A stretch of 64,000 bases of DNA, taken from the NCBI GenBank assembly GCA_018822845.1, contig JAHJJD010000003.1, positions 1 to 64,000 of the forward strand, read 5' to 3'. The position numbers and the translations under genes were made by a program. Positions 2,874 to 61,106 of this stretch are shown piece after piece; positions within the stretch are counted from its first letter, which is position 1; every line of letters starts with the position of its first letter. The DNA comes from Gammaproteobacteria bacterium. GTDB taxonomy: Bacteria > Pseudomonadota > Gammaproteobacteria > Thiotrichales > Thiotrichaceae. The notes beneath the pieces are model-generated. The model had not been told where the DNA came from. It did not search any database and saw only the letters and a list, made by a program, of their open reading frames with translations.

Positions 2874-2996
2874 GCGGGCTGGCTCTCTTTGGTGCTAACT
2901 ATAGTGGTTGGCGGGAGGTTACCGACAAGCGGTGCAGAATTCCATATCCCACTTGCACGGGTGAGGATTAGCAAGTGGTTATTTTGGAAGAGAAAC

Positions 2997-3045
2997 CCCC
3001 ATCCCCAGCCCTTCCCCCGCAAGGGGGGAAGGGCTGGGGATGGGG
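2997..3045. repeat. Perfect GC-rich palindrome (solo palindromic element)
   Basis: Two perfectly complementary 22-base arms (2997-3018 and 3024-3045) are separated by a 5-base loop. The left arm begins CCCCATCCCCAGCCCTTCC, the same sequence that opens the longer element at 35680-35785. The right edge touches the stop codon of vapC (TAA at 3046-3048 on the minus strand). It could act as a bidirectional transcription terminator, but there is no adjacent T-run, so I treat it primarily as a mobile palindromic repeat. Confidence 0.8.
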
Positions 3046-3507
3046 TTAAGCGTTTGGGGTGTAGCTGGCTTGAGTTTCGTGGATCGTATTGTTCTGTGAC
3101 GGGTACGGGCTGATAAGTTTCACGCCGGGAACAGCTTTGAAATCGTCAACATTGGTGGTGAGGATGCTGTAGCCCTGTACCAATGCAGTTGCGGCAATTT
3201 GCAGGTCATGCACATTCAGGTTGCTGCGCCGCTGTTGCCCCAGGGCTTGCGCATACAACTCAGCATAGGTGCGGGCTACTTCGGTATCAAAATCCAGTAC
3301 CGGAATGGTGCTGAGGATGCTCTCGGCGTAGGTGTGCCGGTGCATGTATTCCTCTGGAGTTTTGGCAAGCTTAACCCCGGCGAGCATTTCCGCCACCGTG
3401 ATCGCTGCAATAAATACTGGCTCAGTTTGCAACACCGGGATTGCACCCAGTTCCAACCGTCCGTTTTCTGCGTCAATGAAAACGTTGGTGTCGATGATCA
3501 ATCCCAT
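3046..3507 (-). CDS. vapC: VapC-like PIN-domain toxin
   Basis: A 153-residue PIN-domain ribonuclease, the likely toxin of a type II toxin-antitoxin pair; such toxins cleave RNA, often tRNA. The PIN acidic cluster is visible: D7 in LIIDTNVF, a conserved E in TVAEMLAG near 40, D in NVHDLQIAATAL near 100, and TTNVDDF near 118. The ATG at 3507 overlaps the 3' end of the antitoxin gene by 10 bases, implying translational coupling. The C-terminal tail after ISPYPS is longer than usual, and the stop codon sits exactly at the edge of the palindrome at 2997-3045, so insertion of the repeat may have reset the C-terminus. Confidence 0.85.
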   Translation of the reverse strand: MGLIIDTNVFIDAENGRLELGAIPVLQTEPVFIAAITVAEMLAGVKLAKTPEEYMHRHTYAESILSTIPVLDFDTEVARTYAELYAQALGQQRRSNLNVHDLQIAATALVQGYSILTTNVDDFKAVPGVKLISPYPSQNNTIHETQASYTPNA

Positions 3508-35662: not shown

Positions 35663-35679
35663 GTTTCACCTCCGTATTA

Positions 35680-35785
35680 CCCCCCATCCCCAGCCCTTCC
35701 CCCGCAAGGGGTGAAGGGAGCAAGAGAAAAGAAGGGAGTGCTTCTTGTTCCCTCCCCCCTTGCGGGGGAGGGTTAGGGTGGGGGG
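35680..35785. repeat. Full-length double-hairpin palindromic element, intergenic copy
   Basis: About 106 bases between dctP and dctQ. Two hairpins, each with CCCC(C)GCAAGGGG-type tips, flank a spacer containing GAGCAAGAGAAAAG and CTTCTTGTTCC. The outer ends (CCCCCCATCCC and GGGTGGGGGG) are nearly complementary. The same plan (hairpin, spacer with AGCAAGA or TCTTG, hairpin) recurs inside glk and lutC. It may attenuate transcription between dctP and dctQM, a common arrangement in TRAP operons where the binding protein is needed in excess. Confidence 0.8.
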
Positions 35786-35796
35786 AATTCCCCCTG

Positions 35797-37120: not shown

Positions 37121-37892
37121 GAGCCATACAGAAACCATGAAAAAGCCAAGAATCGCTGAACAAATCGCTGAACAACTGGAAGCCATGATTGTGGAGGGCA
37201 ATATGCAGCCCGGTGACCGCCTGCCTGCCGAACGCACCCTGGCGGAGCAGTTGGGGGTTTCGCGACCTTCATTACGCGAGGCCATCCAGACGCTGATCAG
37301 CCGTGGCCTGCTATGCTCCAAACCGGGCGGCGGCACATTCATCAAAAGCACCCTGGCCGCCGATTTCAGCGACCCGATGTTGACCCTGTTCCGTGAGAAT
37401 CCTGAATACCGTTTCGACGTGCTGGAAATCCGCCATGCGCTGGAAGGCAACGCCGCCTTCTACGCCGCCCTGCGTGCCAGCGACGAAGACAAGGCACGCA
37501 TCAAGCAGGCTTTCGACACCATGATTGCCCTGCACGGCAGCAAGGATCCGATGGATGAAGCGCGCGCCGATGCCGCGTTCCACCTGTCGATTGTGGAAGC
37601 CTCGCACAATCTGGTGCTGCTGCACGTCATGCAAGGGCTGTTTTCTCTGCTGCAAAACAGCATTTCGCACAACCTCGACAAGCTGTACACCATCCACCGC
37701 GTATTCGACCCGCTCAGTTGCCAGCACGAAGCCCTGATGAACGCGATCCTCGCCAGTGAACCGGAAAAAGCCCGCAAGGCCGCACAGGAACACCTCACCT
37801 TCGTGGAAGAATCCCTCAAGAAAATCGACGAGGAAGAAGCCCGCAAACTGCGCTCGATGCGCCGTCTGACCACCGTAGGAGCAGCCCTGTGA
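37119..37892 (+). CDS. lldR: GntR/FadR-family lactate regulator (LldR/PdhR-like)
   Basis: A 257-residue regulator. N-terminal winged helix: GDRLPAERTLAEQLGVSRPSLREAIQTLISRGLL, with PGGGTFI wing; C-terminal FCD domain: VLEIRHALEGNAAFYAALRASDED and the metal-binding His residues in HLSIVEASHN and HEALM. It resembles both E. coli PdhR and pseudomonad LldR. With lutABC downstream and a lactate transporter divergent, lactate (or pyruvate) is the likely inducer. ATG 37119 overlaps the operator; ATG 37137 (MKKPRIAEQ) fits relatives equally well. Confidence 0.88.
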   Translation: MSHTETMKKPRIAEQIAEQLEAMIVEGNMQPGDRLPAERTLAEQLGVSRPSLREAIQTLISRGLLCSKPGGGTFIKSTLAADFSDPMLTLFRENPEYRFDVLEIRHALEGNAAFYAALRASDEDKARIKQAFDTMIALHGSKDPMDEARADAAFHLSIVEASHNLVLLHVMQGLFSLLQNSISHNLDKLYTIHRVFDPLSCQHEALMNAILASEPEKARKAAQEHLTFVEESLKKIDEEEARKLRSMRRLTTVGAAL

Positions 37893-38746
37893 GCAAGCCC
37901 GATACCGTTTATTTCTTCGGCACCTGCCTGATCGACCTGATCTACCCGCAGGCGGGTGTATCGGCGATCCAGTTGATCCAGCGCGAAGGCGTGCAAGTCA
38001 TTTTTCCGCAGGCACAAACCTGTTGCGGGCAACCGGCGTGGAACTCCGGCTACCGCGACGAAGCCCGTGCTGTCGCCCGTAGCCAGATCGCACTATTCCC
38101 CAAGCCCATTCCCATCGTCATCCCCTCCGGCTCCTGCGCCGGGATGATGAAAACCCACTACCCGGAACTGTTCGCCGGTCAGCCGGACGAAGCACAGGCG
38201 CTGGAAGTCGCCGGGCGTGTGTACGAACTTACCGAATTTCTGGTCGACGTGCTGCACATTGAATTGAAGGATTTGGGCGAACCCGTGAAAGTCGCCGTGC
38301 ACACCTCCTGTTCATCCCGCCGCGAAATGGGCGTTGCCGACAGGATCGAAACGCTGCTGGATCAGCTTGCCAACGTCACCAAACTGGAACAAATCCGCAA
38401 GGCCGAATGCTGCGGCTTCGGCGGCACTTTCGCCGTCAAGCAACCGGAAATTTCCGCCTCCATGGTGCTGGAAAAGGTCGACACCATCCGTGCTACCCAA
38501 GCTGACCGTTTGGTCGGGCAGGATGCGGGTTGCCTGATGAATATTGGCGGGGCGATGGAAAAGCAGGGTGCTGCAATTCCGCATCAGCATATTGCCGAAT
38601 TTTTGTGGGAACGCACCAACATGGCTTCGACTCCGCTTCCTTCGACTCCGCTCAGGAACCACAGCCACCGGACAGAGCGTCCCCTGAACGAAGCTGCGGC
38701 CCGTTCCCTGAGCGGAGTCGAAGGGAACAAGGAGACTGCCCAATGA
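37889..38746 (+). CDS. lutA: LutA, CCG-domain subunit of L-lactate oxidation, with repeat-derived tail
   Basis: A 285-residue cysteine-rich protein (YkgE/LutA), subunit of the iron-sulfur complex oxidising L-lactate to pyruvate. Both CCG motifs are seen: QTCCGQPAWNSGY and AECCGFGGTFAVKQPE. It starts with GTG, overlapping the lldR stop (GTGA), with AGGAG 8 bases upstream. The family is about 240 residues; homology ends at HIAEFLWERTN, and the last 40 residues (from about 246) are encoded by a dispersed inverted repeat at 38625-38727, so the tail is probably non-functional. The stop overlaps lutB as ATGA. Confidence 0.92.
   Translation: MSKPDTVYFFGTCLIDLIYPQAGVSAIQLIQREGVQVIFPQAQTCCGQPAWNSGYRDEARAVARSQIALFPKPIPIVIPSGSCAGMMKTHYPELFAGQPDEAQALEVAGRVYELTEFLVDVLHIELKDLGEPVKVAVHTSCSSRREMGVADRIETLLDQLANVTKLEQIRKAECCGFGGTFAVKQPEISASMVLEKVDTIRATQADRLVGQDAGCLMNIGGAMEKQGAAIPHQHIAEFLWERTNMASTPLPSTPLRNHSHRTERPLNEAAARSLSGVEGNKETAQ
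38625..38727. repeat. Inverted-repeat element forming the lutA 3' end
   Basis: TTCGACTCCGCTCAGGAA (38641-38658) and TTCCCTGAGCGGAGTCGAA (38704-38722) are inverted copies, with one further TTCGACTCCGCTTCC unit outside on the left. The spacer is about 45 bases. The same core occurs in uvrD. The element encodes the last 40 residues of LutA and ends just before the lutB ribosome-binding site (AAGGAG). Confidence 0.8.
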
Positions 38747-59980: not shown

Positions 59981-61051
59981 CTAATCCTTGGTATGGTGTA
60001 ACGCAGCTTCCAATGCGCCTTGCAAGCCCAGTCGCGTATTGGTAATCAGGTAAATGGGCATCTGCCGAACCAGCTCCGACATCCTGCCCTTGTCAAAACA
60101 GGCATCCAGAAAACCCTGCGTCTGTAACCACGGCTGGATGCGGGCAGAAATGCCGCCACCGAGGTACAAGCCGCCCCTGGGCTGATACAGCAGGGCGAGG
60201 TTGCCAACCCAGTTGGCATAAAGGTCAGTAAATAGTTGCATGGCAGCAAGCGCCACCGGGTCACCCGCCTGCGCTGCGCTGTTGACCACAGCGCCATTGC
60301 GCTCGCGCAGTTCCACCGGAATTTCACCCGTCATGTCCAGCAGGCAGAACTGATAAACCTGATTGACGCCGGGGCCGGACAATACCCGTTCCCACGAAAC
60401 ATGGCTGAAACGCTGGCGCATGAAAGCCAGCAGGCGTTCCTGTTGCGCATTGGCCGGGGAAAAGTCGGTGTGGCCGCCTTCGGTGGGAAAGGTATGGTAG
60501 CGCCCCGCGTGGTCGGCCTGCATCCAGGCCAGCCCAAGACCGGTACCAGCGCCCGTAATGACGCGGATGGCCCCCTCACCCCCCGGCCCCCTCTCCCTCA
60601 AGGGGAGAGGGGGAGCAAGAAAAGAGTCTCTTAGCCCCTCTCCCCTTGAGGGAGAGGGGTTGGGGTGAGGGGTAACGCCCTCATTCAGCACCACATAATC
60701 GTCTGGCGTCAGGGTGACGACACCTTCGGCAGCGGCCTGGAAGTCGTTGATGAACAGCAGGCGCGGCGTTTCCAGCAGACCTTGCAGGGAAGCATGTTCC
60801 AGCACCCAGTCAAGATTGGTCAGGCGGATGGGCTGGCCGGATTGCACCGACCCCGGCAGGGCGAGGCAAACAGCGTCCGGCTTGCCGGGCTGGCTGGCAT
60901 CATTCAGGAACTGCTGCATCAGGGCTTCGGCACTGGGGAAGTCTGCACTGGCATAGACATGCTCAAAGCGCACCTCCACCTTGCTGCCAGCCATTTGCGC
61001 CCACGCCAGCCAGCTCTTGGTTCCGCCAATGTCGCCCGCAATGATTTCCAT
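59981..61051 (-). CDS. glk: Glucokinase with palindromic-element insert
   Basis: A 356-residue ROK-unrelated Glk-type glucokinase: GDIGGTKSWLAWAQ at the N-terminus, LFINDFQAAAEGV, ITGAGTGLGLAW (ATP site), FPTEGGHTDFSP and GGGISARIQPWL. Residues 127-160 (from TPHPNPSPSRGEG to ERGPGGEG) are encoded by a 102-base palindromic element; without them the protein is 322 residues, essentially E. coli Glk (321). The insert lies in the loop just before the ATP-binding strand. ATG 61051 is chosen. It is 13 bases ahead of glgC. Confidence 0.94.
   Translation of the reverse strand: MEIIAGDIGGTKSWLAWAQMAGSKVEVRFEHVYASADFPSAEALMQQFLNDASQPGKPDAVCLALPGSVQSGQPIRLTNLDWVLEHASLQGLLETPRLLFINDFQAAAEGVVTLTPDDYVVLNEGVTPHPNPSPSRGEGLRDSFLAPPLPLRERGPGGEGAIRVITGAGTGLGLAWMQADHAGRYHTFPTEGGHTDFSPANAQQERLLAFMRQRFSHVSWERVLSGPGVNQVYQFCLLDMTGEIPVELRERNGAVVNSAAQAGDPVALAAMQLFTDLYANWVGNLALLYQPRGGLYLGGGISARIQPWLQTQGFLDACFDKGRMSELVRQMPIYLITNTRLGLQGALEAALHHTKD
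60571..60672. repeat. Double-hairpin palindromic element inserted in frame in glk
   Basis: 102 bases with complementary ends (CCCCCTCACCCC and GGGGTGAGGGG), two hairpins with tips CTCTCCCTCAAGGGGAGAG and CTCTCCCCTTGAGGGAGAG, and the spacer GAGCAAGAAAAGAGTCTC. It is a multiple of three and keeps glk open on the minus strand. Confidence 0.9.
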
Positions 61052-61106
61052 GCAATGTCCTGTGGTTAACGTATTATCTTTTTTACCCAATTATCTTTTT
61101 TACCCA

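Follow-up and report, generated by a model that had tools for sequence, protein, structure and literature searches.

A BoxC-type palindromic repeat in frame within a glucokinase gene of a gammaproteobacterium of the Thiotrichaceae

The window analysed here is a 64,000-nucleotide stretch (contig JAHJJD010000003.1, assembly GCA_018822845.1) from a gammaproteobacterium of the family Thiotrichaceae, and its glucokinase gene (glk) carries an in-frame insert, which is very probably one copy of a dispersed, essentially non-coding element of about 101 bp, composed of an inverted pair of BoxC units, that landed in a tolerant surface loop of the enzyme. An earlier reading of the window, made from the sequence only, claimed that a palindromic element lies in glk, keeps the frame and adds no stop, and this claim was confirmed. 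The parts of the gene and of the element are as follows.

59981..61051, minus strand: glk, glucokinase of 356 aa, intact, stop codon included (PF02685, TIGR00749, Foldseek)
60572..60673, minus strand: in-frame insert of 102 nt encoding TPHPNPSPSRGEGLRDSFLAPPLPLRERGPGGEG, with no counterpart in 12 congener orthologues
60572..60672: palindrome of two inverted BoxC/TM units whose third-strand arms point outward (repeat comparison)
60572..60582: left outer arm CCCCTCACCCC, the minus-strand unit's third strand (conserved in an alignment of 30 copies from this genome)
60588..60612: left hairpin CCCCTCTCCC-TCAAG-GGGAGAGGGG (complementarity)
60613..60634: variable centre, its core differing from copy to copy inside an AAGA...TCTT bracket (63 parsed copies have 61 distinct centres)
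60635..60659: right hairpin, exact reverse complement of the left hairpin (complementarity)
60662..60672: right outer arm GGGGTGAGGGG, the plus-strand unit's third strand (compared with the E. coli unit)

The glk insertion and its product

The two 25-nt arms of the claimed double hairpin (60588–60612 and 60635–60659) are 100% complementary, and the outer arms CCCCTCACCCC and GGGGTGAGGGG form terminal inverted repeats, a trait of MITEs. The glk element contains the BoxC/PIT/TM unit CCCTC(T/G)CCC-loop-GGGAGAGGG-NN-GGGGTGAGGG; its right unit differs from E. coli TM_ECO no. 2 by one mismatch and three single-base gaps, as judged from Table 1 of the original report (PMC4666352), and the left unit also resembles TM_ECO no. 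2, with extra G/C. On sequence grounds, each half of the glk element is the BoxC/PIT/TM intrastrand-triplex unit of E. coli.

Glk matches PF02685 with 273.9 bits, split into two stretches, and TIGR00749 with 212.5 bits, slightly below the cut-off of 225.45. The insert corresponds to residues 127–160, and its translation gives the 34 Pro/Gly/Arg-rich residues expected (8 P, 6 G, 4 R and 4 L); the interval first given for it, 60571–60672, was off by one base, as the insert codons occupy 60572–60673 of the minus strand. Subtraction of the insert does leave 322 residues, as had been calculated, but the agreement of this figure with the length of E. coli Glk, which had been pointed out, looks coincidental, as the Glks of 12 congeners have 327–332 aa. 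About 5–10 residues of the native loop are thus gone as well, and the event was not a clean insertion.

The insert was also said to fall directly before the motif GAGTGLG, and the AlphaFold2 model (50-sequence alignment; mean pLDDT 91.0, pTM 0.88) places it there, between the strands 119–123 and 162–168. Confidence falls to pLDDT 44–57 in the blocks covering residues 131–160, while a Foldseek search with the model returned E. coli Glk at ranks 1 and 3 (1q18 and 1sz2; TM 0.80 and 0.83). The element is therefore predicted to form a flexible, low-confidence loop on an otherwise intact Glk fold. The gene stays under purifying selection, as its codons compared with those of the nearest congener, G007, give a dN/dS of 0.106 at a dS of 1.1 (319 ungapped codons; 83% protein identity). 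The dS to other congeners is 1.1–2.3 where computable, which was not the case for six of them, and this Glk is roughly as close to the other congeners as that of G007, so that no acceleration is apparent by identity.

Folded as RNA, the insert stretch reaches -91.9 kcal/mol (z -8.9), a stability equalled by none of 200 shuffles, and folded as DNA it gives a z of -7.4. In an mRNA, a hairpin of 43 bp might make ribosomes stall or serve as a target of RNase III; for glk, we infer that translation continues through it. An Rfam search of positions 60000–61100 yielded 42 matches (E up to 1); most of these resemble microRNAs, and no match reached the gathering score of its family. A plasmid search with the 34-residue insert (tblastn, E 0.01) returned no match, a result of little weight as the query is short and of low complexity.

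The insertion is most simply explained, on the sequences compared, by entry of the element into the glk loop after the split from the sequenced congeners. The genus search covered 16 genomes including this one, and a glk orthologue matching both sides of the site was found in 12 of the other 15, while G004–G006 show only a distant Glk. The element is absent from all 12 orthologues, the comparison that the sequence-only reading had proposed: the distance from the NDFQAAA motif to GAGTGLGLA is 138–153 nt in each of them, against 228 nt in this glk. The motif spacing is at most 44 residues in all 54 Glk loci measured (of 80 fetched; four of the 54 are titled Thiothrix), against 65 in this Glk, and the 34 residues recur in none of the 12 congeners and none of the 54 loci. 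In three sister species (G012, G013 and G014) the same loop is occupied by a different dispersed palindrome, CCCTTCGGCTACGCTCAGGGAAC.

Copies in the genome and in other proteins

The 102-nt query matched 40 places in the genome, a lower bound as 40 of 71 first-look candidates were scored. A profile run over the 40 loci gave 43 non-overlapping matches, of which 41 belong to the element family (38 two-half copies and 3 partial ones) and 2 to a related family of the CCCCCCTTTTTCAAAGGGG type. The partial match L074 and L041 are probably the two ends of one copy separated by a contig break, while L076 (the same copy as L280) is a genuine half copy that reads in frame within a deiminase gene. Two further full copies (L281 and L282) were confirmed, giving at least 43 copies in this genome; the glk element is thus a member of a repeat family, as had been supposed. 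Three copies (L069, 962–1083; L070, 962–1082; L075, 1001–1123) form a subfamily in which the right hairpin is longer by about 20 bases (...GGGTGCGGGGTTGGGG).

The element was matched in 14 of the 16 genus genomes, this one included, with no match in G003 and G010. In a sample of 274 genomes of the class, 60 (this one included) gave a match at E 0.001, scoring being limited to three candidates per genome; most of the matches listed span about 40 nt, the size of one half unit. Twelve loci of other genera, chosen partly for closely spaced matches, comprise seven with two units, all outward, and five with one recognisable unit.

Fourteen of the 43 copies in this genome lie in frame in recognised genes, eight inside proteins, four N-terminal and two C-terminal, so that the central metabolic gene glk is one of several hosts. 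The hosts were recognised by comparing the open frames that run through the element with Pfam and NCBIfam, a procedure by which broken genes are under-counted. The 14 coding copies are the following.

Inside protein: the glk copy
Inside protein, L039: DabA, element within the domain match
Inside protein, L049: HsdR subunit, between a sub-threshold HSDR_N match and ResIII
Inside protein, L077: second HsdR subunit, within a domain match
Inside protein, L067: linker of a two-ATPase ABC protein
Inside protein, L075: isochorismate synthase
Inside protein, L073: a protein with TIR and Lcl_C domains, element between the two
Inside protein, L280 (= L076): half element within a PAD_porph deiminase domain
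N-terminal, L040: NosD signal-peptide region (putative start codon)
N-terminal, L042: signal-peptide region of a SoxH-related hydrolase (putative start codon)
N-terminal, L068: prepilin leader of a GspH-like pseudopilin (putative start codon)
N-terminal, L072: half element after codon 3 of RdgB (putative start codon)
C-terminal tail, L046: MnhC-like protein
C-terminal tail, L066: alternate F0 subunit B

The host genes differ in the frame that they use, and both orientations occur. At rdgB (L072, 369–1653), besides the half element after codon 3, a full element is present at the 3' end, which reads in another frame into the next gene, encoding a HAD-phosphatase-like protein, and may supply its start codon.

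Nine congener loci, mostly picked for an open frame there, were fetched. The ABC linker that hosts L067 also carries the element in frame in G001; in G001 and G012, it is in frame at the membrane/ATPase junction of an ABC exporter; in G008, it is in frame in the TIR/Lcl protein; and L275 (G002) repeats the C-terminal tail of L046. In G007, it lies in frame between domains III and V of DnaX (L272, 766–2400), in the same part of the protein where E. coli makes gamma by frameshifting near a hairpin. L273 carries the element upstream of a ScpA domain with an uncertain start, L270 has no recognised host, and L274 has no such frame. Outside the genus, an outward pair at L258 separates an ABC ATPase from its permease domain within a single frame.

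The six frames of the 63 parsed copies are open in 24% of cases (90 of 378), against 45% for letter-shuffled versions of the glk copy, which argues that the element is not adapted to coding. With 24% of frames open, about 8% of random insertions (0.24 x 1/3) are expected to leave the host gene open, and the simplest reading is that insertions closing a gene are selected against. Flanking open reading frames were scanned for 30 of the 49 listed. Among 12 further copies with both flanks scanned, eight have Pfam matches on both sides, three on one side and one on neither; the families flanking the eight always differ (for example KdpA/P-type ATPase and citrate synthase/aconitase B), and no gene split by an element was found among the 12.

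Upkeep, shared sites and alternative explanations

Of 78 copies from five species, 63 were parsed for arms and centres. The arms are 98.0% identical within species and 98.1% between species, values biased upward by leaving out the 15 unparsed copies, whereas the centres are 45% identical. The right linker starts with GTT in 61 of the 63 and the left linker differs, giving two unequal halves. One linker position and one centre position pair as C-G (26 copies) or T-A (25 copies) with no exception in 51 copies, the other 12 parsed copies falling outside the narrower pattern of this count; the pairing could reflect two subfamilies by descent, without repeated compensatory change. A centre is shared by two pairs only, namely two G007 copies with different flanks and the orthologous pair in G011 and G015. 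The common centre of the two differently flanked G007 copies suggests that the centre travels along with movement; if so, most copies would be old, with scrambled centres and with arms held near-constant by selection or by recombination between copies.

The preferred reading of the glk insert as a landed BoxC pair would entail the following course of events. An inverted pair of BoxC/PIT/TM units (about 101 bp), spreading as a non-autonomous element, would have landed in the glucokinase surface loop before GAGTGLG and survived there as its length and frame left the gene open and the loop tolerated 34 flexible residues; ribosomes would read through the hairpin, and the peptide would remain in the enzyme. 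Throughout the genome, copies would last between genes or where a flexible peptide is tolerated, as in loops, inter-domain linkers, leader peptides and termini.

Seventeen insertion sites were compared with up to four congeners (40 regions of 77 matches fetched, judged by eye). Some congener sites are plainly empty; L046 is shared with G002 as an identical copy, centre included; L044 (1001–1100, G000) and L089 (G007) occupy the same intergenic site with the element inverted in place; and the L068 site in G008 holds a half unit. Another palindrome is present at the L067 site in G007, G008 and G002, at the L065 site in G008, G002 and G007, at the L057 site in G008, at the L075 site in G011 and at the L077 site in G007. 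Occupants confirmed as dispersed are those of the glk loop, L067 (G008), L065 (G002, G007) and L077 (G007). Allowing up to two mismatches, the CCCTTCGGCTACGCTCAGGGAAC repeat is present in 15 of the 16 genomes, and the reversed control pattern had zero matches. Dispersal was likewise confirmed for two BoxC-like families (query 249–360 and 361–455); among the matches listed, the GTAGGGTGGG type has one further place and the GTCGGACTGAAG and GTAGGGGCGACC types have only themselves. Two readings fit: that there are few sites at which an insert of any kind is tolerated, or that the hairpin elements prefer the same targets.

Related palindromes also occur elsewhere in the window. Two TTCGACTCCGCTCAGG repeats (38641–38726) lie in the 3' end of the open reading frame 37889–38746, in frame in the C-terminal tail; this is also the repeat family that occupies the glk loop of three congeners. 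A palindrome of the CCCCCCATCCCCAGCCCTTCCCCCGCAAGG type with an AAGA...TCTT-like centre (35678–35786; 38–41 bits to the profile) sits between open reading frames of 207 and 364 aa, which resemble TRAP transporter genes. At 2995–3056, a palindrome with a 22-bp stem (CCCCATCCCCAGCCC...) has its end adjoining the stop-codon end of the minus-strand open reading frame 3046–3507.

A broader interpretation is that hairpin DNA is dispersed and maintained throughout the genus by a system that is neither RAYT nor a classical insertion sequence, with near-identical arms, unique centres and sites acting as exchangeable docking points. This is put forward tentatively: the glk loop, the dual-ATPase linker, HsdR and an intergenic site each receive different palindromic families, and the arms are near-identical across species although synonymous sites in glk are near saturation.

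It is unlikely that the element is of the REPIN type and moved by a RAYT (Y1 HUH) transposase. REPINs are inverted doublets of hairpin units with a variable loop and no target duplication, and the element likewise is an inverted hairpin pair with a variable loop. No target-site duplication was detected, the best flanking direct repeat averaging 2.58 nt against 2.41 nt for re-dealt flanks (reached by 29 of 200 shuffles, n=62), and no terminal repeats were found to extend beyond the element (inverted match of the flanks 0.324, of shuffles 0.355). Short ends are shared among the flanks of the 63 copies, (A/T)AC occurring on the left in 51 and GT(A/T) on the right in 54, but the GTAG/CGTC tag was not recognised by eye; the right flank starts with GTA in 36 of the 63 copies, and no fixed GTAG was seen on the same visual inspection. 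A Y1_Tnp match (PF01797) is present in 8 of the 14 carrier genomes, but none was found in this genome or in the carriers G001, G008, G012, G014 and G015 (6 of 14 in total), while the non-carriers G003 and G010 have 10 and 13. A RAYT/REPIN origin was rejected on this presence and absence of PF01797 in the genome and the genus, and the search for a mobiliser, which covered Y1_Tnp only, found none. In G010, which has no BoxC-pair match, the 13 Y1 transposase matches score equally and lie in open frames of 145 aa.

A selected role in glk for the insert, or for the hairpin that it forms in the mRNA, is improbable, for instance in the tuning of expression or in an interaction. The arms of 10 parsed copies in or next to coding frames are 98.5% identical to the consensus, which would be in keeping with a function, but the value is 99.5% in 22 others, so that the coding copies are if anything less conserved; moreover, the element occurs in many unrelated genes in differing frames and orientations, and congeners fill the glk loop differently or leave it short.

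There is very little probability that the 34 residues never enter the protein, whether through excision of the hairpin from the mRNA or through ribosomal skipping like the byp-type bypassing known from mitochondria. The hairpin is extremely stable, and in G007 one also lies inside dnaX; bypassing, however, needs no open frame, yet all eight recognised internal copies are in frame and stop-free where only 24% of frames are open, a count biased by the discovery of coding copies through their open frames. An assembly artefact of the draft genome, which comprises 130 contigs with L041 and L074 at contig ends, is extremely unlikely, as at least 60 kb and 3 kb of contig sequence lie on either side of the glk copy, the single-contig congeners G001, G006, G009 and G014 carry the same family, and the flanks of other copies are orthologous to congener DNA.

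Relation to known repeat families

In-frame insertion in unrelated genes is known from the Rickettsia palindromic elements (RPEs), of which nearly half of the 44 copies in R. conorii lie in genes, as summarised in a review (PMC10969869). The behaviour is thus shared, as had been proposed from the sequence; the family that the sequence matches is an already described one, BoxC/PIT/TM_ECO (PMC4666352). Membership in the RPE families has next to no likelihood: the sequence matches BoxC/TM, the host is a free-living gammaproteobacterium, and an NCBIfam scan of Glk, with a library that includes an RPE model, returned only glucokinase models. A further difference is the use of several frames and both orientations by the copies.

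With REPIN/REP-RAYT systems the element shares the inverted doublet and the lack of target duplication, and it differs in the missing Y1 gene of this genome and five other carriers and in the unrecognised tag. As outlined for enterobacteria in Delihas 2007 (PMC2759123), RU/ERIC-type MITEs are likewise small mobile repeats that supply reading-frame segments to genes, among them those for an amidase, an L-threonine 3-dehydrogenase and an ABC ATP-binding protein; coding insertion outside Rickettsia is therefore not new as such. RU-1 to RU-3 measure 127, 168 and 103 bp; the present element was matched to BoxC instead. High-frequency in-frame palindromes in Rickettsia and single intragenic MITEs in other bacteria are the precedents; for an element of the already known BoxC/TM family, no report of in-frame use in a protein was found in the literature searched, which covered few subscription papers.

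BoxC (= PIT = TM_ECO) has 23 copies in E. coli K-12, described as 'always located intergenically', including five inverted pairs of types A and B, occurs in more than 260 genomes, has no link to transposons, phages or plasmids, and forms an intrastrand DNA triplex in vitro as studied by CD/NMR, according to Holder et al. 2015 (PMC4666352). The elements agree in the unit of about 36 nt (a hairpin plus the GGGGTGAGGG third strand, near-identical in sequence), in the inverted pairs of unequal halves and in the broad bacterial distribution. They differ in polarity, as the third strands point outward in the pairs of this genus, whereas four of the five MG1655 pairs are inward and one is outward, a difference that belongs to the composite pair and not to the BoxC unit. 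The outward MG1655 pair lies between lldD and trmL (L277, 130–256).

Outward pairs, near-constant arms, unique centres and shared docking sites provide a clue to how BoxC spreads, and the family offers a tractable case for non-coding repeats turning into protein segments. A widespread repeat, known in E. coli since the 1990s and reported there as strictly intergenic in all 23 MG1655 copies, supplies peptides in an environmental sulfur bacterium, where 14 of 43 copies are in frame in recognised genes, the recipients including glucokinase, DabA, HsdR, an ABC ATPase linker and leader peptides, and in a sister species DnaX.
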